Assembly (NCBI GenBank): GCA_027603945.1
Contig: JADIIU010000105.1
Coordinates: 1 to 44,731 of the forward strand
Length of the DNA: 44,731 nucleotides
From: Terramyces sp. JEL0728
Lineage: Eukaryota; Chytridiomycota; Chytridiomycetes; Rhizophydiales; Terramycetaceae
Direction of reading: 5' to 3'
This document shows positions 4,012 through 35,997 of this stretch, piece after piece. The notes below the pieces were generated by a model. It did not search any database. It worked only from the letters and a program-made list of their open reading frames with translations, and was not told where the DNA came from. The position numbers were made by a program, and so were the translations under genes. Position 1 is the first letter of the stretch. The number at the start of each line of letters is the position of its first letter.

Positions 4012-5410
4012 TTATTCAATGATATCATACAGCTCCAGAGAATAATCTCTTGCAAGTATAAACAAAACCTTTTTCTGCTGGTTGATTTTCAACGCAATAC
4101 CACCAGTCTCCTTGATTTCACTTATTGTACCATCAAAAAACAAAACTCTTTTTTCTGTCAGCAGGAATAATCCGTTATACCAATCTAAATCAACAACAGG
4201 CTCAATATCAAGAGCAGTCATACTTGCATCCAATTTCGTCATGTATAATCGATCATCGTACGAATACACAGTACCGTTAACAATATTAATCTAATTTAAA
4301 AACAAATACGAATTTTCCAGGGTATTCAAGCACTTTGGGTTCATAATCCGACAAGAAATCAAGCTGGCTGATACTAAACTCTACATTCTTGTCATACTCT
4401 ATAAACCAACTGCCCATTTCATTGATTTCGCCCAATGTCAAGTAAACTAAAAAATCACACTTGCCTTTAATTGACTTGAGGATAGTCTGGAAATCATGAG
4501 TAAAAACCAACACTAGTTTGTCCAGCTTTTTCAGTTTTGTTAATGTAGACATTTCAGCTATCGTGTTTTTGATTTCATAGTATAAATCCATTATTTCGGT
4601 TATTATAGATACTATTTTTTGGTAAATCGAATTGATGTTTCTTTGTATCGGCAAATATAGTTTTTGGTCTATTTTTGTTTGGCCATAAAGTACTTGTTTT
4701 TTCCACTCTAGTCGAGTTTTTAATGGTAATTTATCCTGCAGTGAGTTTGACTGTTTTTCATATAAATTCATCTCTGTATGGAATCTACTTGTCAATATCT
4801 ACTATTATTCCTTCAATTACCTTCAAGGAATGTGACTGCTCATCCAACAATTGCTTCTTTTTGGAATACAAAAGTAGAAAATCCAGATCATTCAAACTGT
4901 ACAGATGAATCTTGTCATTAATAATAATCAATTGATTGTCAAATAAATCCAGCTTCTGCGACTCTATTTTGATTTGTCTTATTAGCAGTGATTGGTTTAA
5001 GCGCAAGTAAACTGTATCCTTTGTTGCATAAATCAGCCTGCCGTTAGTGTTTTGCTACCTGATGTTATAACAATTCATACCTAGAATCAAAGATGTACTA
5101 CCTATAGATCAAAAAAAAAGCACCAGTCATAGCCATTAACCTGCTTCCATTCGCAATTCAAGACTCTTTCAACTTCAAACTCTGATACTTTCTTTCCACT
5201 CTCCAAATCATAGAAAGAAGCGCAAGTATCAAATACAACGAGATTTGCATTGTTTGAACAAGATAGAGAACCAGGAAAAGTGTGTACTGGCTCAAACAAT
5301 CTGTATAGAGTGGTTGTGTTTGTGGTTATTGTTAGGAGGTTGCGCTGGTTTATCCATTGTGCTTTGATTCTAGAATTAAACTTTTCTAAATGGAATAACT
5401 CCAACTCCAT
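4012..5410 (-). CDS. APC4: Anaphase-promoting complex subunit 4 (Apc4), short form
   Basis: Four exons: 5410-5124, 5037-4821, 4798-4310 and 4290-4012, with introns of 86, 22 and 19 nt; 423 residues. The N-terminus follows the Apc4 WD40 start (TTTLYRLFEPVHTFPG, then a segment like YDLESGKKVSEFEVERVLNCEW). The middle is helical and holds the Apc4-like CDFLVYLTLGEINEMGSW. The last exon ends in strand-rich sequence (KKVLFILARDYSLELYDI) like the family C-terminus. Apc4 is a scaffold of the APC/C ubiquitin ligase in the nucleus. It is about half the length of animal Apc4, which suggests reduction. The start chosen (Met at 5410) fits the family; an in-frame upstream Met lies at 5464. The 86-nt intron is described separately. 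The family call is by eye and moderately sure. Confidence 0.55.
5038..5123 (-). other. 86-nt intron built of four abutting GT...AG units
   Basis: Between APC4 exons 1 and 2. On the minus strand the interval splits exactly into 5123-5102 (22 nt), 5101-5081 (21), 5080-5059 (22) and 5058-5038 (21). Each unit starts with GT and ends with AG, so three AG|GT junctions sit inside. Candidate branch sites are ttgatc, ttgattc, tataac and cactaac. Removing all four restores the frame as a split TGG codon (tg|g). Every partial removal leaves an in-frame stop shortly afterwards. Confidence 0.7.
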
Positions 5411-5435
5411 TCTTTGGACAAGATTAAAAAAATGT

Positions 5436-6240
5436 TTATTCCAAGCAATAGTAAATGTCACCAACTAGTTTTAATTTCTTTATAGACACCAACCCATTCA
5501 AAACTAGCATCAAGCTACTGTAATCTACGTTAACAAAACTTACTTTGCTTTGAAGATTCTTGCAATTCTTTTACAGTAAACCCATCCTGCCTCCCAAGAA
5601 ACTTTTTATCTTCCAGCAACTCGTTGATTTCTTGTACAGTTTCATTGAAATAATTTAAACTGATTTTAGCCCTGGTATTTTGATCTAGTAAATTATATTC
5701 TGGCTCCAATTTTTCAATGCTCTTTTCAAAAGAAAAAGAGAGACTGTTTGAGCTGAATCTTTCAGAGATTAATTCCAGTCCAAGTGTAGAGAGCCCGATT
5801 GATTCGATATTGTCTTTGTTGAATTTAGGTTCTTTAGGTTCTTTAGGTTCCTCGATACTCTTTACTTTCTCGATACTCTTTTCTTTAATTGCTTCTTTTA
5901 TTATTCCAGATTGCTGCAAGAGTGGTAATAAGCAATCAAGTTGCAGCTGTAAAGAATTAAACGCTTCATTTGCTTTATCAAATAAATTAATTCTCTTCGT
6001 GTCTTTGATTTGTACAGTTGGCAAGTTTAATTCTCCTTTGGTTTTTAATTCACTGATTTCGTATTCTAAATCCTGTGCCTGGTTTTCCAGTTGAGAGATT
6101 AGTTTTAGCATTTTCGGACAAGGTATTATAATCAAGCTTGTGGATTTATTCAATAAACTGTAGGCGACACTACCAACTTTCATAGATTTACTCAAATTTA
6201 AAGTTGTGTCAGAAAGATCTATCATAACTGGCTGAACCAT
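5436..6240 (-). CDS. Helical/coiled-coil protein of unknown function
   Basis: Two exons (6240-5544 and 5524-5436) around a 19-nt intron (gtaagttttgttaacgtag); 261 residues. Splicing replaces an immediate stop with 30 more residues ending DIYYCLE. Residues about 45-75 (LISQLENQAQDLEYEISELK) form a coiled coil. A short KEPKEPK-type low-complexity run sits near residue 130. I recognise no family. The stop at 5436 lies only 25 nt upstream of the APC4 ATG on the same strand, so the APC4 promoter and 5' leader must lie inside this gene or the two are co-transcribed. Confidence 0.6.
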
Positions 6241-11265: not shown

Positions 11266-11620
11266 TTTCTCCAACTACATGTCCACAGTTACTGCATGAA
11301 TGCACAGAATCCTTTATATCATCTTAAATTAACATGAAACTACTTATAAATAGTGGTACGAATGAGCAGCAGCAGCAGCCGATTAAACACATGCCTCCAA
11401 CCGCCAGCCAAGCAGCCAAACCATTTTCCTTTTTCACTACTGTAATTCCTTGTTGACGACAATGTGGACAAAATAATGGCTGTGGGGAATGTGAAAATAC
11501 CATTGGTAGTTGGCCAACATATCCCTGCAAATTAGGCGCTTGGTGTGTCTGTGCTGTTTGTTGGTACTGATTGGGATATACTGTTGGGGCAGGAAACTGC
11601 GGAGGACTTGTCTTTTCCAT
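11249..11620 (-). CDS. LITAF-domain protein 1, 116 aa, intron inside the domain
   Basis: Exon 1 is 11620-11344 and exon 2 is 11322-11249, around a 21-nt intron. Unspliced, the protein would lack the second zinc knuckle; splicing yields HSCSNCGHVVGEK, matching HRCANCGMVAG in its neighbours. The domain has CPHC in the first half, a membrane-dipping hydrophobic stretch (LAAWLAVGGMCLIGCCCC) and HxCxxC in the second half. LITAF/SIMPLE proteins are zinc-dependent monotopic membrane proteins of late endosomes. The N-terminus is Pro/Gln-rich. ATG at 11620 was chosen; the frame is open further upstream. It is the only one of the five LITAF genes here that needs an intron. Confidence 0.85.
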
Positions 11621-11796
11621 TGCAAGGATTTTGAAACGCAACGATTTCTTTGACTGTTGATTGTTTGAAACTCCATTTATGTGGCTTGAGTCATTAATTT
11701 CTTGCTGCCTCAAAGGAATAAGCCAATCTGCCAGCTATCGTTTCCAGCGGCACCTTTGACTCGCCAAAGATCTCGATTGCAATGGACAATATTTAT

Positions 11797-12219
11797 TCAA
11801 ATCATCTTTTTAGTACCAGCAACCATCCCGCAATTAGCACATCTGTGGTTGGTGTCTTTGCAAGTATCAATTACGCATGGAACCCAAGCACAACAGAAAC
11901 ATACTAGACAAGTGCCGAATACTGCTATCCAAGCAGCAGCACCCATAGTCTTTTCAGTCGTTGATAATCCTTGCTGTTTGCAGTTCATACAAGTCATTGG
12001 CTGGGGGTGTTCACTAAATACTGGCGGTGCAATGTACATTGGTGCTTGCCCGCTTGGTGCAGCAGTTATGGGTTGATAAACTACAGGGTTTGCTGGAGCT
12101 GCGTATGCTTGTTGCGGTTGTTGATACTGTTGTGGAGGATAGGCTGGCAGTGTGTTTTGCTGGTAATCTTGAGGATAAGTAGGAACTCCGGCTTGGCTGT
12201 AAGGTGACTTGTTATCCAT
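11797..12219 (-). CDS. LITAF-domain protein 2, 140 aa
   Basis: Intronless. A Pro/Gln/Tyr-rich N-terminus (SQAGVPTYPQDYQQ, LPAYPPQ) is followed by a full LITAF domain: CMNCKQQG, the hydrophobic stretch WIAVFGTCLVCFCCAWVPCVID, then HRCANCGMVAGTKKMI. The C-terminal GTKKMI is identical to LITAF proteins 3 and 4, indicating recent tandem duplication. Family role: binding of endosomal membranes and sorting of membrane proteins to lysosome/vacuole, often with WW-domain ubiquitin ligases. Confidence 0.88.
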   Translation of the reverse strand: MDNKSPYSQAGVPTYPQDYQQNTLPAYPPQQYQQPQQAYAAPANPVVYQPITAAPSGQAPMYIAPPVFSEHPQPMTCMNCKQQGLSTTEKTMGAAAWIAVFGTCLVCFCCAWVPCVIDTCKDTNHRCANCGMVAGTKKMI

Positions 12220-12458
12220 GAATAAAGCAAGAATAATTCAGACTTAATTTATGTGGCACTGCGAGGCTGATGTGTTTGAGAATGTTTTGAAAGCACAAGA
12301 AATAATATCCTTGGTTATACCACTGGGTTTCACTCTCTGGATCTACTTTGCGTGCATAATTTGACATGTCCATTGAAAAGCATCTCAAAATTTCACATTG
12401 AAACTCACATGGTTAAAATTCGATACACATTTATAAAAAGCGAGATCTATTAAAGCGT

Positions 12459-13016
12459 TTAAATCATCTTTTTGGTTCCAGCAACCATTCCACAGGTAGC
12501 ACATCTGTGGTTGGTGTCTTTGCAAGTATCAACTACAAATGGAACCCAAGCGCAGCAACAACAAACCAAGAAAATAGCACCGGCAGAAATCCACACTGCA
12601 GCACCATTTGTCTTTTCAGTAACAGACATTCCTTGAGTTTTGCAATTCATACAAGTCATTGGCTGGGGGTGTTCATTGAATATTTGCGGAGCAATGTACA
12701 TTGGGCCTTGAGCTACTGGTGCTTGAGTAATTGGAGCACTTTGCTGTGGTTGATACCCATTTTGTTGTGGTTGATAGGCATTAGTTGGCGGGTAGGAAGG
12801 ATACTGTTGCGACGGAACCTTCATTCCTGGTTCTTGAGGGATAGTCGATTGTACCACTGGTTGAACAATTGTTGGAGGTTGGACGTACTGTGGTGGATGC
12901 ACAACTTGGATTTCTTGGGGCGGAACTTGAATTTGTGGTTGATATCCGCCAGGCAAGACTGTTTGAACATTGGTTGAAGGAGAAGGGTAAGAGCTTTGTC
13001 TGTTGTTTTGGTCCAT
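12459..13016 (-). CDS. LITAF-domain protein 3, 185 aa
   Basis: The longest of the cluster. About 110 residues are Pro/Gln/Val-rich (repeats such as YQPQQNGYQPQQS), then a LITAF domain with CMNCKTQG, WISAGAIFLVCCCCAWVPFVVD and HRCATCGMVAGTKKMI. Intronless. It differs from LITAF proteins 2 and 4 mainly in the length of the disordered arm, suggesting repeat expansion in the N-terminal part while the domain is conserved. Confidence 0.88.
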   Translation of the reverse strand: MDQNNRQSSYPSPSTNVQTVLPGGYQPQIQVPPQEIQVVHPPQYVQPPTIVQPVVQSTIPQEPGMKVPSQQYPSYPPTNAYQPQQNGYQPQQSAPITQAPVAQGPMYIAPQIFNEHPQPMTCMNCKTQGMSVTEKTNGAAVWISAGAIFLVCCCCAWVPFVVDTCKDTNHRCATCGMVAGTKKMI

Positions 13017-13093
13017 TGAAATTTTTCAAGAAACTATTCCGAAAAAATGCAGGCTCAAGAAAAGCTGAAACAAAAAATATTATTAATACTCTA

Positions 13094-13600
13094 TTAAATC
13101 ATCTTTTTGGTACCGGCTACCATACCACACGTAGCGCATCTGTGGTTGGTATCTTTGCAACTGTCGATGACGAGTGGAACCCAGGCACAAGGACAGCAAA
13201 CAAACAAAATAACACCAGCTGCAATCCAAGTGGCGGCACCATTGGTTTTTTCAGTTACTGAAATACCTTGCTGTTTACAGTTCATACAGGTGATTGGCTG
13301 TGGGTGTTCTCCAAATATTGCTGGTGCAATATACATGGCTGTTTGGCCAACTGGTGCTTGAGTAACTGGCGCTTGAGTAACTGGGGCAGACTGTTGCGGC
13401 TGATAAGTTTGCGATGGTTGTTGCATTCCTGGTTGTCCGTATTGTTGAATGTATTGAGGAGGTTGTTGGGCACCTTCTTGTGGAGGAAGTTGGATTTGGG
13501 GTTGGTAGCCTTGCGGCAAGACAGCTTGTGCGTTAGGTGATGGAGCTTGAGGTGGATAGGTAGGGACGTTTGCTTGCTCGTACGGAGATTTTTGGTCCAT
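13094..13600 (-). CDS. LITAF-domain protein 4, 168 aa
   Basis: Intronless. The N-terminus (MDQKSPYEQANVPTYPPQ) is close to that of protein 2 (MDNKSPYSQAGVPTYPQ). A short direct repeat APVTQAPVTQAPVG precedes the domain. The LITAF domain has CMNCKQQG, WIAAGVILFVCCPCAWVPLVID and HRCATCGMVAGTKKMI. It belongs to the same recent subfamily as proteins 2 and 3. The ATG lies only 5 nt downstream of the stop of the ORF at 13606. Confidence 0.88.
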   Translation of the reverse strand: MDQKSPYEQANVPTYPPQAPSPNAQAVLPQGYQPQIQLPPQEGAQQPPQYIQQYGQPGMQQPSQTYQPQQSAPVTQAPVTQAPVGQTAMYIAPAIFGEHPQPITCMNCKQQGISVTEKTNGAATWIAAGVILFVCCPCAWVPLVIDSCKDTNHRCATCGMVAGTKKMI

Positions 13601-13605
13601 TAGTG

Positions 13606-13971
13606 CTAATGTTTTCCTTGGTGCTTTCTTTTATACACACCCACAAAGGATGCCACCCGAGCCGCGTCCTGAAAAGGAACTGCGAAGAACACAGACTCAC
13701 CAAACGTGCTGGTATTGGCTGCACACCATTGTATAAATATTCGCAAGGACATAATAAACGATCCTGTATTTCCATTGGGGCCAATCGCAATCTTTCCCTG
13801 TGTTTGTGCGACAGCTCTTTCATCGCGAGGCGTTTCTCGGTGATTTCCTTTGAAAATTATCAAAGGTTCTATATAAAGGCTATTTGAAGCTAGTATCAGT
13901 GGCTCACAGGAATCGGGTTGTGGAAACTTGTCAATAAAACAGAAACTGCCCAAGTATGGCGAATATAACAT
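13606..13971 (-). CDS. Possible divergent cyclophilin-like protein, 121 aa
   Basis: Open ATG-to-stop frame with no coding competitor of comparable quality. The segment QGKIAIGPNGNTGSFIMSL followed by STFGESV resembles the cyclophilin core (G-x-L-S-M-A-x-x-x-x-x-N-G-S-Q-F-F-I, then V-F-G-x-V). The usual peptidyl-prolyl isomerase active-site residues are not all present, and the protein is about 40 residues shorter than a full domain. The similarity is by eye and weak. Neighbours: LITAF protein 4 starts 5 nt after its stop on the same strand. Confidence 0.38.
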   Translation of the reverse strand: MLYSPYLGSFCFIDKFPQPDSCEPLILASNSLYIEPLIIFKGNHRETPRDERAVAQTQGKIAIGPNGNTGSFIMSLRIFIQWCAANTSTFGESVFFAVPFQDAARVASFVGVYKRKHQGKH

Positions 13972-14000
13972 TTGTTTAAGTTAATATTGACAAGTATTCT

Positions 14001-14135
14001 TTATACAGAGTTGTTTTGTTTGTTTATCAATTCTTCCCTTGCTCGGATGTATTTGGCAGAGTACTTTCCATTCAGCTCTCTGTTTCTCTTACCCTTGTCG
14101 CCTTTCCTCTCCCTTCTAGTTTTTGGTTCCTCCAT
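14001..14135 (-). CDS. Small basic protein, 44 aa, unknown
   Basis: ATG to stop on the minus strand; strongly basic N-terminal half (KTRRERKGDKGKRNRE) then NGKYSAKYIRAREELINKQ, which is helical in character. The composition is protein-like and unlike the AT-rich flanks. It lies 29 nt upstream of the cyclophilin-like ORF and could be its upstream exon, but no good splice pair joins them. Function unknown. Confidence 0.35.
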   Translation of the reverse strand: MEEPKTRRERKGDKGKRNRELNGKYSAKYIRAREELINKQNNSV

Positions 14136-14680
14136 TGTGAATTCATGCCAAATCCACTGCTATTTAAATATTTTCTGACTCATTCGATGTTAACTGTGCC
14201 ACGCTTTTGGGTTTAATCTGGTACATTCTTAAACACCACTTTGGAGGTAAAGTATACTGTTTTATATTTTACAATATAATCGACACGCATCATATTTCAC
14301 AATATAATCGACATGCATTATATTTCACAATATACAGGTAAAACTTATCGGCAGAGATTCAATACTCCATGCGGGAATAATAGCGGCTATGAAAAGCACT
14401 GCAAGCATCTAGTTTATTCACAGCTTTACTTGAATGGCGATGAGGTGTGTAACTTATGGCTGTGCGCAAAGTCAATAAATCTACATCTCCAAAGGGCGGT
14501 AATAGGCTGATCTAACATAGTAAAGATTTGTATTAACAGAAAACGTCAGACGGCTGTGACGGTCTATTGAGCTAATACTTTAAACTAATAAAACAAATTG
14601 TGGCTTATCAAAATTTCGCTGAATTTGGACACAGAGATTGGTACAAACCATATAAATACCAGGAACATGAGCACATCACT
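14136..14680. other. Intergenic, 545 nt, with tandem repeat
   Basis: Region between minus-strand small genes and LITAF protein 5 on the plus strand. It contains the 28-nt repeat at 14264-14334. ORFs in it (such as 14313-14510 +) have no recognisable content. No tRNA-like fold was found. Confidence 0.45.
14264..14334. repeat. 28-nt tandem repeat, about 2.5 copies
   Basis: Unit begins atatttcacaatataatcg and continues to a gcat. Copies at 14264-14291, 14292-14319 and a partial at 14320-14334. AT-rich and upstream of LITAF protein 5. Confidence 0.8.
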
Positions 14681-15046
14681 ATGTCCTCTGAAAAAGCTCC
14701 AATCACCCCGCCAGATCAAGCAGAACTTGTACCAGAACTGCAAGATATATCAGCTCCTCCACCTGCTTACCCAGCACCTAGTGCAGCCCAACCTAAATCC
14801 CAACCACCAATGGTAGTTCAACCACCGTTTGGCAAAGAAGCAGTGCTTGTTACTTGCCCATTCTGCAGCCAAGCTGGGCTAACGAAAACAACAGAAAAGG
14901 TAGGCACTGGTGCATTAGCTATTGGTTGTTTAGTGTGTCTGATTTGCTGGCCTTGTGCTTGGATTCCTTGCGTTGTTTGTCAAGATGTTGAACATCATTG
15001 CAGTTCTTGTGGAGCTAAAGTAGGAGAAAAGCCAGGTCTCAATTAA
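14681..15046 (+). CDS. LITAF-domain protein 5, 121 aa
   Basis: The only plus-strand member and the most diverged. The N-terminus is Pro-rich with a PPxY-type motif (PPPAYPAPS), the classic WW-ligase-binding motif of animal LITAF. The domain has CPFCSQAG, a hydrophobic stretch ALAIGCLVCLICWPCAWIPCVV, and HHCSSCGAKVGEK. The start at 14681 is chosen because upstream codons in frame lack an ATG. Intronless. Its separate orientation and sequence suggest an older paralogue than proteins 2-4. Confidence 0.87.
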   Translation: MSSEKAPITPPDQAELVPELQDISAPPPAYPAPSAAQPKSQPPMVVQPPFGKEAVLVTCPFCSQAGLTKTTEKVGTGALAIGCLVCLICWPCAWIPCVVCQDVEHHCSSCGAKVGEKPGLN

Positions 15047-32134: not shown

Positions 32135-32267
32135 TATATACATTCCCATCGCACTGTCTGGTTGGTTTTAAGATGATTGAATAGTTATAAAATCCCAAAC
32201 AATCAGTCGGCACATGGTACCGAATCAAAATCCGAGTGGCTTTGTGTAATCCTAAAATAAAAAGTTT

Positions 32268-32852
32268 ATGCAACAGAAAATCACTACTCTTACAGCGCAA
32301 GTTTCAAGGTTCAAGTACGACACAGCTTTTAACCCCCAATGGACGTCGCTAATATCACAAAACGACTTTGAATTGATTGTAACCAGACTAAACATTGCAG
32401 CTAAAAAAGGACCAATTCCTGGATTGAAAATTGTTTTCTTTGCTTGCATCATCGTTTCTCTCATTATTCTTGGTATAATTGTCTATGTTAACAGTAATTA
32501 TTGGTTTGTTGGCCATTCCCTGATTACCCTGTCGTTATTCACAATCACACTGTACCGATTTTTCAAACTTCGAATAGTCGATAAAGAATTAAGAATAACT
32601 GTAGGGCAACTGAATGCTACTTTGGGAACAAAGAATCTTTGGTTGGAATACCACAAGGCTGTTCAGTCTAGCTGTCTTATAACAAGCTTTAGTTACAATG
32701 TCCATATCTATCGTGTCACGCCAGATGAAGGGCAAGTTATTGATATGACTGGTTTGCAATCGCAGGAAAAAGTTAACGTTAGCATGACACCAGAAATGCA
32801 AGGCCAGTTCTCTGCATTCTTGCAACAACCTGCTCAGGTGCACAAGGTCTAG
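32268..32852 (+). CDS. Two-TM family protein, copy 1 of 5, 194 aa
   Basis: Intronless. Shared features: TTLTAQVSRFKYDTAFNPQW, SQNDFELIVTRLNIAAKKGP, two adjacent membrane helices (residues about 50-100), a basic-acidic stretch VDKELRITVGQLNATLGTKNLWLEYHK, a beta segment YNVHIYRV, and a tail MTPEMQGQFSAFLQQ. Membrane hairpin with both ends on the same side (inference). I do not recognise the family. This copy has lost most of the YDY.V.IYYLQ motif. Confidence 0.75.
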   Translation: MQQKITTLTAQVSRFKYDTAFNPQWTSLISQNDFELIVTRLNIAAKKGPIPGLKIVFFACIIVSLIILGIIVYVNSNYWFVGHSLITLSLFTITLYRFFKLRIVDKELRITVGQLNATLGTKNLWLEYHKAVQSSCLITSFSYNVHIYRVTPDEGQVIDMTGLQSQEKVNVSMTPEMQGQFSAFLQQPAQVHKV

Positions 32853-33028
32853 AAAACGAGAACAATAAAGCAGATTTCGAAAATAATGTTAACATTTTCC
32901 AGATTTTTGTACTCGTGGCTTGTAAAATACAAACTGTGCTTTTTTCCATACGAATTCGGTGCTTTTGTCACGCGGTTTCCTTTTTGGAATGTGACCTTTG
33001 TGACGTGAAGGATTTAAAAACTCGGCAA

Positions 33029-33742
33029 ATGGTAAACATATTAGAAATGGAAAGGCTTAAAATTACAACACTTACTTGCAGAGCCTCTAGTATGAAGTAT
33101 GATGCAGCGTACAACCCTCAATGGGCTCGATACATTTCCCAACAGGACTTTGCGCTAATTATGACCCAACTAAACATTGCAGCTGAAAAGGGTCCAAGCG
33201 GAGGAGTGCTAATGTTTTTCTACGCTTTACTCATTCTTGGATTTCTGGGATTCGTTGGCGGCATCATCAGTGCCGCAAGCACAAAATCAGCAAATGTACC
33301 AGTGACTGTTTTCCCAGCATTCATTCTTATTTTTATTGGAATAGTTTGTGTTAGTGTATACAAACACACTACCTTGAGAGCAGTTGACAATGAATTGCGT
33401 AAAACTACCAATCAATTATCCACACAGTTGGGACCAAAGAATCTGCTTGTTGAATACAACAGGAACCTGTATGCAATCAAAGTAACTGTAAACAACAACA
33501 GCGCTCATACAGAAAACAAATACGACTACGATGTTAACATTTACTACCTGCAAGAAAGCGTGCAGCAACCGCAAATTGTTCTCGATATCAATAGCATTTT
33601 ACCACTCTTGCAACAACAAAACTCTGCAAATCTCCAAAACCAACAAGCTTATGCTAACATGACACCAGAAATGCAAAGCCAGTTTTCTGCATTTTTAGCC
33701 CAGCAACAGCAACAAGTTCCTCCGCCATACAAGAACCCTTAG
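33029..33742 (+). CDS. Two-TM family protein, copy 2 of 5
   Basis: About 232-237 residues, depending on the start at 33029 or 33047 (MERLKITTL, matching copies 4 and 5). It shows the whole set of family motifs: CRASSMKYDAAYNPQWARYISQ, DFALIMTQLNIAAEKGP, two TM helices, ELRKTTNQLSTQLGPKNLLVEYNRNLY, YDYDVNIYYLQ, and MTPEMQSQFSAFLAQQ. The C-terminus adds a Gln-rich stretch and PPPYK (PPxY). Intronless. Confidence 0.78.
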   Translation: MVNILEMERLKITTLTCRASSMKYDAAYNPQWARYISQQDFALIMTQLNIAAEKGPSGGVLMFFYALLILGFLGFVGGIISAASTKSANVPVTVFPAFILIFIGIVCVSVYKHTTLRAVDNELRKTTNQLSTQLGPKNLLVEYNRNLYAIKVTVNNNSAHTENKYDYDVNIYYLQESVQQPQIVLDINSILPLLQQQNSANLQNQQAYANMTPEMQSQFSAFLAQQQQQVPPPYKNP

Positions 33743-33880
33743 AATAAAAATAATTTTGATTAAAGCAGTGAATTAACCTATGACTTCGGTCTCCCTTCAA
33801 GTGCTTTTAGAATGACGATACAGGCTTCCTTTGAATGGCTGAACAAAGTATAAAATTTGCAATACCAACCGGATATCAGA

Positions 33881-34504
33881 ATGAACAAGGACGAAAAACA
33901 AAAAGTTGGTCTAGCTCTCTTGTCATGCACAGAATCCCACTTGGTATATTCTTCACCGTATCTCGTTGCTTATGAACCATACATACCAAAACAAGATTTT
34001 GATCGAATTGTTAAAGAGCTGAATCAAGTGCTGATGTTTGGGCCAAAGAAGTATGTAATGAACTTGCTGCTAGCATCAATCCTTGGTTGCTTTGCTGCCT
34101 TTCTTGCTGTTGGGTTCATTGTTGCCAAAACAGGTTCAAACGCTATTTTCGCATTCATCCCGTTAATTCTAGCTATTATCGGCGGAATATACTTGGCCAG
34201 ATATCGAACGAATAGTTTCAAATCGTTGGAAACTGAATTGCTCAAAGTGACAGTAAAGCTCTCAGAGACTCTTGCTTCAAAACAGATATTGGTTGAATAT
34301 AGGAAAGATTCTAGGGGGATTATGAATACTGCTGACGACAAGTATGTAAAGACTGCCAGACGCTATGAATATAACGTGTATATCTATTACCTGCAAGATC
34401 CCACTGATCAAGTGGTTCTAGATATAGGCGACTTTGCTGCTCAAACCCGGGCAAGAAAGTATGAACAGTCGCCATTTTCAAACTATTTTACTTCTTGGGT
34501 TTAA
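33881..34504 (+). CDS. Two-TM family protein, copy 3 of 5 (most diverged)
   Basis: 207 residues from Met at 33881. It keeps YLVAYEPYIPKQDFDRIVKELNQ, two TM helices, LETELLKVTVKLSETLASKQILVEY and YEYNVYIYYLQD, but lacks the MTPEMQ tail and the N-terminal TTLxC start is changed (ALLSCTESHL). Intronless. Divergence suggests a separate role or relaxed constraint. Confidence 0.7.
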   Translation: MNKDEKQKVGLALLSCTESHLVYSSPYLVAYEPYIPKQDFDRIVKELNQVLMFGPKKYVMNLLLASILGCFAAFLAVGFIVAKTGSNAIFAFIPLILAIIGGIYLARYRTNSFKSLETELLKVTVKLSETLASKQILVEYRKDSRGIMNTADDKYVKTARRYEYNVYIYYLQDPTDQVVLDIGDFAAQTRARKYEQSPFSNYFTSWV

Positions 34505-34671
34505 TATATTCCTTTCAATCGATCACGAGAATAGATTCTGAAATTAAAGCAGTTTCTTTAGTCGGAAGATCCATCTCGCTTACAGCCAAGTCATCAAGTC
34601 CTTTATCCGGCAATTCTTCAATTCTGTTTTTGGTCAGCACCTTGAATTTCGCTCCAGCAGACTTTTTCTTT

Positions 34672-35286
34672 ATGGAACGACTACTACTAACCACTGTTGC
34701 TTGCAGAACTTCAAACTTGGTCTTTGAATCAGATTACCTACCTGAATTCACCCCTTACCTTTCTCAACCCGACTTTGAATCCATCCTTGCTCAATTGAAC
34801 AAAGCAACGAAAAAGGGGCCAAACCAAAAAGTGATTGGTTCAGCTTATGTATTGGTATTCATATCAGTAATTGCACTAATAGTAATTGGCTGTGATTTTA
34901 TATCCAACCATTCTTATGGCAAACAGGATAACTTTGGGCTAATCCTCGTTCCTGTTTTGTTTGCAGTATTCATTGGTATAGGATTGGCTCTCTACGAATC
35001 TGCAACTACAAAAGCCCTAGAAACCGAACTACGCAAGACAGTAAAGCAAATATCGGCATCGATGGTGTCCAAACGTATCCGGCTTCAGTACTCGAGAGAC
35101 TTGTATAAAGTCAACGTAACTGTTATTAATGGGTTTGCATCAACTGAAAAAAAGTATGACTATTTGGTTGATATCTATTATCTGCAGGATATTCAAGCTC
35201 CCACCGGTGCGTATGGAAATAGTGTCGCTGTTACTATGACACCTGATATGCATGCTCAGTTTGCTACTTTCCTGGCTCAGCAATAG
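34672..35286 (+). CDS. Two-TM family protein, copy 4 of 5
   Basis: 204 residues from MERLLLTTVACRTS at 34672; the frame is open upstream, but homology to copies 2 and 5 fixes this start. Motifs: YLPEFTPYLSQPDFESILAQLNKATKKGP, two TM helices, LETELRKTVKQISASMVSKRIRLQYSRDLYKVNVTV, KYDYLVDIYYLQD, and MTPDMHAQFATFLAQQ. Intronless. Confidence 0.77.
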   Translation: MERLLLTTVACRTSNLVFESDYLPEFTPYLSQPDFESILAQLNKATKKGPNQKVIGSAYVLVFISVIALIVIGCDFISNHSYGKQDNFGLILVPVLFAVFIGIGLALYESATTKALETELRKTVKQISASMVSKRIRLQYSRDLYKVNVTVINGFASTEKKYDYLVDIYYLQDIQAPTGAYGNSVAVTMTPDMHAQFATFLAQQ

Positions 35287-35469
35287 TAGAAATGGAATAA
35301 AGAACTAGTTTAGAATGTAAATCTTTTCGGCATCTGTTCAGTTGGAGATCAAAGTGCTGCACACCAACAAGCTCATACACTAATTCCGGTTAAATTTAAC
35401 AACTCCATTCCCATCCATTTGTGTTTTACTAAAAAAACGTGACCACTTGCCAAGAATCTTTTCCCAACC

Positions 35470-35997
35470 ATGGAAAGGCGGTTATTAACTACAATATCAT
35501 GCACAACATCCGACTTAAAATTCACAGCGGAATACAATCCAGACTGGACCCCATACATAGCCCAGCCGGATTTCCAACTTTTACTTGACGAATTAAACAA
35601 AGCAACATTGAAGGCACCAAACAAGAAAATAATACTCCTTCTCTACTTTTTAAGTTTCGTTGCATTGGTTACGCTGTGTGTATTTGGATTCAGCCCGGCA
35701 TTCAGTTTCTGGATAATGCTGATTCCGTTCTTTTCAATGATTGTTTTTATTGTTATTTCGGGTATATACAAGTCGGAAATGCTGACCTTGGTTGATACGG
35801 AACTGAGGAAAGCTGTTGGTGACACTACACAGGTAATTACGAGCAGGAATATACTGCTGCAGTACTCTAGGAATCTATATAGCTGTCGCAAGAGAAACGA
35901 TGTAGAAGCAGTGCATAAAAAGTATGATTATATCGTATATATTTACTACCTTCAAGAAATTCAACGTCCATCTGCAATTTTGACTAAAAACGGGTGA
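35470..35997 (+). CDS. Two-TM family protein, copy 5 of 5, 175 aa
   Basis: MERRLLTTISCTTS start; YNPDWTPYIAQPDFQLLLDELNKATLKAP; two TM helices; LVDTELRKAVGDTTQVITSRNILLQYSRNLYS; KYDYIVYIYYLQE. It ends shortly after the YYLQ motif, without the MTPEMQ tail. Intronless. Closest by eye to copy 4. Confidence 0.77.
   Translation: MERRLLTTISCTTSDLKFTAEYNPDWTPYIAQPDFQLLLDELNKATLKAPNKKIILLLYFLSFVALVTLCVFGFSPAFSFWIMLIPFFSMIVFIVISGIYKSEMLTLVDTELRKAVGDTTQVITSRNILLQYSRNLYSCRKRNDVEAVHKKYDYIVYIYYLQEIQRPSAILTKNG

Follow-up and report, generated by a model that had tools for sequence, protein, structure and literature searches.

Tandem arrays of complete minimal introns, probably removed unit by unit, in the chytrid fungus Terramyces sp. 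JEL0728

A four-unit intron array and its host gene

The window, i.e. the whole stretch of 44,731 nt analysed here (C105 of the Terramyces sp. JEL0728 genome), contains a minus-strand gene whose first two coding exons are separated by an insert of 86 nt (5123-5038; Table 1). This insert consists, without remainder, of four abutting GT...AG units (22, 21, 22 and 21 nt), whose three junctions are all of the form AG|GT. The original prediction, made from the sequence, had recognized these four back-to-back units, and its coordinates and lengths proved exact (sum 86); it had not stated the strand, and to its coordinates we add the assignment of the gene to the minus strand. Its claim of a plausible branch site in each unit likewise holds: a branch-like T[AG]A[CT] is present in all four (TGAT in units 1 and 2, TAAC in units 3 and 4), with its A lying 6-7 nt from every unit end. 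No likeness in sequence is visible among the four units, the first donor (GTGCTT) obtains a low score, and the array was not called by our own gene model for introns of 14-30 nt.

Table 1. Coding exons, introns and array units of the host gene, with positions in the window
Feature	Position	Strand	Length (nt)	Description
First coding exon	5124..5410	-		ATG at 5410 (putative start codon); ends GAC TG|
Array unit 1	5102..5123	-	22	GT...AG; branch-like TTGAT, A at 5109, 7 nt from unit end
Array unit 2	5081..5101	-	21	GTAG...TAG; branch-like TTGAT, A at 5087, 6 nt from end
Array unit 3	5059..5080	-	22	GTATG...CAG; branch-like ATAAC, A at 5065, 6 nt from end
Array unit 4	5038..5058	-	21	GTAG...CAG; branch-like CTAAC, A at 5044, 6 nt from end
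Alternative intron	5055..5140	-	86	Implied by NCBI protein P0121; shifted 17 nt
Second coding exon	4821..5037	-		Begins |G CTG ATT (LIYATKDTVYLRLNQS)
Ordinary intron	4799..4820	-	22	P0121 likewise joins SLK|ILTSRF
Third coding exon	4310..4798	-		
Ordinary intron	4291..4309	-	19	Orthologue P0122 reads YPGEF|ITCING across
Last coding exon	4012..4290	-		With stop

Whichever of the four units are retained, singly or in combination (15 of 15 cases), a stop arises at codon 96-102, and removal of all four yields a TG|G codon and a frame that is open to codon 179, just beyond the next intron, which was left unremoved in this test. The early stop upon partial removal and the TGG codon upon complete removal are thus both as had been foreseen. 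When introns of 17-26 nt are admitted, two solutions keep the frame, namely the four units and a pair of one 26-nt and one 21-nt intron with a 39-nt exon kept. Two single introns of 86 nt also keep it, 5123-5038 and the shifted 5140-5055. A full cut into GT...AG units of 19-24 nt was obtained for 10 of 300,000 random 86-mers, which were generated by an order-1 model with the dinucleotide make-up of the window array and were not required to contain branch sites.

The spliced protein of the locus finds its best database match in HDV01_000489, a hypothetical protein of Terramyces sp. JEL0728, to which it is 97% identical. The earlier naming of the host gene as APC4 could not be upheld, with no APC4 match being recovered in Pfam or among PDB sequences; a remote homology is still conceivable. 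The NCBI protein P0121 (window 4012-6111, minus strand) appears to fuse two neighbouring genes, the host and the one upstream of it. At the shifted intron of 5140-5055 it has the junction WKQ|QNTNGR, and this intron is thought to be an annotation artefact. The orthologue from Boothiomyces JEL0866, P0122, conserves the TVYLRLNQS of the second coding exon and has no extra residues at the array site, where its own model looks broken. A further segment of 19 nt at 5543-5525 was called as an intron, and its removal fits SSKQNYNSLMLV of P0122. Together with the reading of P0122 across 4309-4291 (Table 1), this lends support from a relative to introns of such length.

Elsewhere in the window there are two runs of small, related-looking proteins, at 11324-15046 and 32256-35997; the first run is presumably LITAF-like and the second is of unknown kind. 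A phosphoserine aminotransferase encoded in the window shares 92% identity with that of Boothiomyces sp. JEL0838, followed in similarity by other chytrids where the organism is named.

Intron lengths and recurrent arrays in the genome

Intron lengths were surveyed in the Terramyces sp. JEL0728 genome (15.0 Mb, 231 contigs) with our own simple gene finder, which uses a coding Markov model together with ORF and GT/AG only. A motif-free version without length preference, in which 12-130 nt were allowed, placed 42 of its 79 introns in 285 kb at 19-22 nt, the others being scattered over 13-130 nt; this version called 43 introns of 18-24 nt, and 35 of them have a branch-like T[AG]A[CT] at a distance of 4-9 nt from their end. 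With learned motifs and the same permitted range, 189 of 230 introns measured 17-26 nt and 41 were of other lengths, and many of the long introns of this version appear to be coding sequence. A version limited to 14-30 nt assigned 318 of 329 introns in 335 kb to 19-23 nt (mode 20), and because of this limit it has no bearing on longer introns. Within the window it called 27 introns, 25 of them of 19-22 nt; the models allowing 130 nt gave a few window introns of 35-83 nt, which we think are model errors. A permissive model for long introns produced 77 candidates, and most of the 28 examined were, by eye, joined neighbouring genes; no convincing long intron without AG|GT unit structure was seen among these 28 of 77, in what was a weak test.

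Given that the introns of the genome peak at 19-22 nt, the window units, all of 21-22 nt, are of normal size for it, in agreement with what had been proposed. All four moreover display the features of the minimal U2-type introns of this genome, i.e. a length of ~19-23 nt, GT...AG ends and a branch-like site. The peak at 19-22 nt falls in the range of ciliates and nucleomorphs. A U2 snRNA gene was detected above the family cut-off at C70:14443-14635; for U1 snRNA the genome search returned no match, and the control set for that search was equally empty.

Internal exons shorter than 18 nt were called by the 14-30 nt model at length zero only, with four such junctions and none at 1-17 nt. Two arrays supply these four zero-length junctions, one of four units on C1 (20+21+20+19 nt) and one of two units on C2. 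A search of the whole genome with the pair pattern TAGGTA N{6,36} TAGGTA recovered 99 matches, 75 of which have a period of 19-24 nt; a further 21 are spread across all of 12-17 and 26-42 nt, and 3 lie at 18 or 25 nt. Collapsing overlapping matches left 47 loci at 19-24 nt (binomial p ~1e-17 versus even spacing). Single ordinary introns preceded by an exonic TAG and followed by GTA were rejected as an explanation of these pairs, only ~0.3 being expected genome-wide. Three AGGT junctions at 19-24 nt spacing were matched 205 times, versus 36 times at 27-32 nt and 30 times at 12-17 nt; from these counts at the control spacings ~30-36 of the 205 are expected by chance, and the 100 matches listed out of the 205 correspond to 68 loci. 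Three AGGTA junctions gave 93 matches, 83 of them with their letters, and both periods are of 18-25 nt in 59 of the 83. These form 45 clusters, of which 33 hold at least two complete adjacent units and therefore at least one zero-length exon each. The longest array, on C51, comprises at least eight complete units when the AGGTA and AGGT patterns are read together.

Two-unit chains built with a loose motif number 29 at a spacer of 0 versus 7-27 at spacers of 1-8, which is barely above the control, and chains of four were found at spacer 0 only (2 versus 0 at other spacers). Reversed patterns yielded more matches than the real ones, 259 versus 99 for the TAGGTA pair, 229 versus 93 for triple AGGTA and, for triple AGGT, 581 versus 205 at 19-24 nt, 471 versus 36 at 27-32 nt and 536 versus 30 at 12-17 nt. 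We did not take the reversed word as the background level, since it differs from the real one and is commoner; it has no comparable peak at 19-24 nt, the spacing at which the real word peaks. On the period spectra, chance was rejected as the origin of this class of arrays, and the genome-wide enrichment of AG|GT at a phase of 20-22 nt, on which the original prediction had staked itself, is strongly positive by both the triple-AGGT and the TAGGTA counts.

A hot spot at C128:21740-23313 contains, within 1.6 kb and on both strands, three runs of at least three AG|GT junctions and two pairs, one of the runs consisting of five identical 20-nt units. The same intron units are present in two pairs of distant loci, C37:35266 with C56:21320 and C18:70839 with C18:132613, and these are probably copied genes or segments.

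Reading frames, branch sites and origin of the arrays

The array on C1 sits in the gene for TFB1 (TFIIH p62), identified by PF03909 (8.7e-18) and by PF08567 (5.3e-05, below its own cut-off). Its four units total 80 nt, and when joined across them the protein reads FTW|TEENTNKPSIQIP; the stretch FTW|TEENTNKP aligns without a gap to human p62 (phmmer, E 8.6e-27 overall), and in a MAFFT alignment the junction is also ungapped versus Globomyces P0125. With introns of 17-26 nt the four units represent the sole solution that preserves the ORF; the frame is also kept by single introns of 80 and 74 nt. For introns of 17-26 nt, the frame is kept by one solution at a two-unit array in a WD40 gene and by two, 20+20 and 23+20 nt, at a second such array in a HEAT-repeat gene; in both of these latter solutions the introns abut. 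Open frames could be joined at all four arrays whose flanks were examined (4/4).

The TFB1 proteins of relatives display inserts of 7 and 14 residues which resemble translated introns. In both Boothiomyces TFB1 models there is a break immediately behind FTW, and the following exon is incomplete, which suggests that an unusual intron is present there too. Boothiomyces macroporosus P0124 has 14 extra residues at a point where Terramyces has one 20-nt intron. This insert is known as protein, and upon back-translation its codons allow GT..AG|GT..AG with units of 22+20 nt whose branch sites lie 7 and 6 nt before the unit ends, no other split being possible at offsets 15-31; the same demands were satisfied by 0 of 20,000 random 14-mers from Terramyces proteins. 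The NCBI proteins of these relatives appear to carry read-through peptides, and the published proteomes of these chytrids may contain many such errors in the form of fused genes and translated introns.

As the array patterns demanded only AGGT(A) and spacing, the branch site provides independent evidence regarding the units. Among 104 complete array units of 18-25 nt, 80 have a T[AG]A[CT] 4-9 nt from the end. The motif occurs in 30 of the 37 units that resemble a listed neighbour and in 50 of the 67 that are unlike any, the latter being termed diverged (<0.7 identity to listed neighbours, with 12 of the 67 having no listed neighbour); within the diverged units it is found in 44 of the 55 with a listed neighbour and 6 of the 12 without. 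In the controls it is present in 3 of 30 units of other spacing and in 43 of 495 AG|GTA sites not called as acceptors, i.e. a background of ~9% (Fisher p for diverged units versus the AG|GTA controls 4.5e-31 at n=67 and 2.5e-30 at n=55). If the diverged units were idle their branch motif should have drifted to this background; the kept branch sites favour recognition unit by unit. Branch scores are lower in array units than in called single introns (means of 1.04 and 1.71, p = 1.4e-6), the single introns having been called with that same motif. Donor positions +4 to +6 are also more relaxed in array units than in single introns, perhaps owing to the AG that always precedes the donor in an array.

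When units of the same length are compared, a likeness of at least 75% of the interior is reached by 31 of 45 pairs taken within arrays and by 4 of 1034 taken between arrays, the latter four all deriving from the two copied-locus pairs; fully identical units are exemplified on C30, C128, C79 and C91. Comparison of 16 similar, non-identical neighbour pairs, which overlap and are not independent, uncovered 48 differences, of which one lies at -9 to -7, the branch region, with ~3 at each of the other positions. The best fit to these patterns is given by tandem duplication on the spot, with the copies then drifting at positions other than the splice elements. Similar neighbouring copies, as expected of tandem genomic duplication, are seen across the arrays and are not visible in the window array. 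The original prediction had envisaged an origin by repeated insertion of introns into intron ends; where the origin is readable, it points instead to local tandem duplication of whole units. That prediction had also set its insertion scenario against stepwise splicing, and these two are not alternatives, one being an origin and the other a route of splicing.

A different form of insertion, in which short mobile introns (introners) entered repeatedly and independently at AG|GT, would explain both the dissimilar look of the four window units and the large number of units unlike their listed neighbours (67 of 104, including the 12 with no listed neighbour). Old duplications, however, would also yield diverged units, and the likeness of units within arrays, which hardly extends between arrays, speaks against such insertion; we hold it to be unlikely. 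A dispersed introner family, i.e. dispersed introns of one sequence, was rejected on a sample of same-length, ungapped pairs, in which at least 75% of the interior was shared by the 4 of 1034 pairs between arrays and by 60 of 14854 pairs of single introns.

Routes of splicing and relation to known systems

The arrays, their period, their branch sites and their local duplication can be read directly from the DNA, as can, for TFB1, the continuity of both frame and protein. We consider it likely that the window insert is made up of four minimal U2-type introns, each complete, which follow one another directly without an intervening exon, and that removal unit by unit is the main route by which it is spliced. 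The reasoning is that of intron definition, by which, in a study on fungal introns, sites pair with their closest partners and an intron as small as possible is cut out (PMC7138796). In an array the spliceosome would probably pair the nearest donor, branch site and acceptor, ~20 nt apart, and the units could be removed singly and in any order; each excision would restore an intact AG|GT, and all routes would lead to one mRNA. The arrays themselves would grow by tandem duplication of one intron unit, a growth that would be close to neutral because every copy is spliced out, and selection would act on each unit to preserve its branch site together with its donor and acceptor. What we infer beyond the DNA is that removal proceeds stepwise and that array growth is neutral.

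The insert might instead leave in a single step as one 86-nt intron, with the first donor joined to the last branch site and acceptor and the internal AG|GT sites being unused by-products of duplication. The mRNA would be identical to the stepwise product, and one step and several are indistinguishable by cDNA; the last unit has a CTAAC...CAG that could serve such an intron, and fission-yeast ESTs are cited as showing one intron across four 24-bp AGGT duplicates (PMC4974935). Nevertheless, diverged units keep the branch motif far above background, the similar neighbour pairs differ only once in the branch region, and the weak test for long introns returned none that was convincing outside arrays; we judge one-step removal to be rather unlikely. 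A different gene model for the window, with the pattern here arising by chance, is more doubtful still. It would employ either the 5140-5055 intron, whose junction P0121 shows, or the 26+21 nt pair, which keeps the 39-nt exon from units 2-3, and both of these retain the frame. The chance of a complete cut is small in the random 86-mers, though, and the same structure recurs genome-wide; no 26-nt intron was called in the 335-kb sample; P0121 by our reading fuses two genes, and the proteins of relatives appear with read-through peptides; and P0122, even though its own model looks broken, is without extra residues at the site. We therefore regard such a gene model as very unlikely, and removal of four complete introns unit by unit as the preferred reading.

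Several known systems share elements with these arrays. Recursive splicing at ratchet points, known from Drosophila and vertebrates, proceeds through juxtaposed AG|GT with an apparent zero-nucleotide exon, the donor being restored at each step (PMC8605326), as it would be at the three junctions of the window array. In that source recursive splicing is described for long introns, in contrast to the 86 nt of the window array and the 80 nt of that in TFB1, and its intronic form requires a cryptic RS-exon (PMC8605326). The Terramyces units are only ~21 nt long, reach runs of at least eight and reside in a fungal host, and by our reasoning they are too short for an exon-definition step. Stwintrons are complex fungal intervening sequences that are removed by consecutive U2 splicing steps; their outer intron has its donor, branch or acceptor element split by the inner one, which has to be excised first (PMC7138796). 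The Terramyces units, unlike these, abut and are each complete, with GT, AG and a branch-like site inside every window unit, and a nested stwintron reading of the arrays was rejected for this reason. Abutting introns have been kept apart from stwintrons as another type, with reference to recursive splicing, in a further paper (PMC6616335).

The Rogers model, with its 24-bp fission-yeast duplicates, shares with the arrays AGGT tandem repeats within a gene and an intron across several copies (PMC4974935); in that model a duplicated exonic segment turns into an intron, whereas in Terramyces whole minimal introns have been multiplied at dozens of loci, most with a branch-like site. Human polyubiquitin UBC has a tandem AGGT array of dual-specific sites, usable as donor or acceptor; its units are coding, 228 nt in length and variably retained, whereas retention of any of the window units breaks the frame (PMC10809524). 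Ultrashort introns of narrow length, from 15 to ~25 nt, occur in ciliates, mikrocytids and a nucleomorph (PMC10245619; PMC5014332); Terramyces differs from these organisms in being a chytrid fungus and in its tandem arrays. The words 'tandem' and 'double' are absent from the texts of the tiny-intron papers searched, and the available text of the papers compared above nowhere brings introns of ~20 nt together with arrays in which complete introns abut. An account of minimal introns in tandem arrays, or of introns of ~20 nt in these fungi, did not emerge from the full-text literature searched, most subscription papers lying beyond it.

The odds are about even, in our estimate, for a broader proposal: that the spliceosome of this lineage is held to ~20-nt introns, with longer inserts persisting only as strings of minimal introns ('spliceable minisatellites', whose unit number changes without change of the protein), and that obligatory multi-step splicing through zero-length exons is routine, genome-wide and shared with Boothiomyces. 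With adjacent complete introns competing for splice sites at dozens of loci, the arrays amount to an experiment of nature, spread over the genome, on how intron definition works at minimal size, and also to a natural test of the splicing machinery on minimal introns and on gene structures with zero-length exons. They suggest a simple route for the multiplication of introns, by tandem duplication of a still-spliceable intron, and offer a possible way of lengthening introns where long ones are not tolerated. In addition, our observations suggest that such arrays are a cause of errors in the published gene models of these chytrids.
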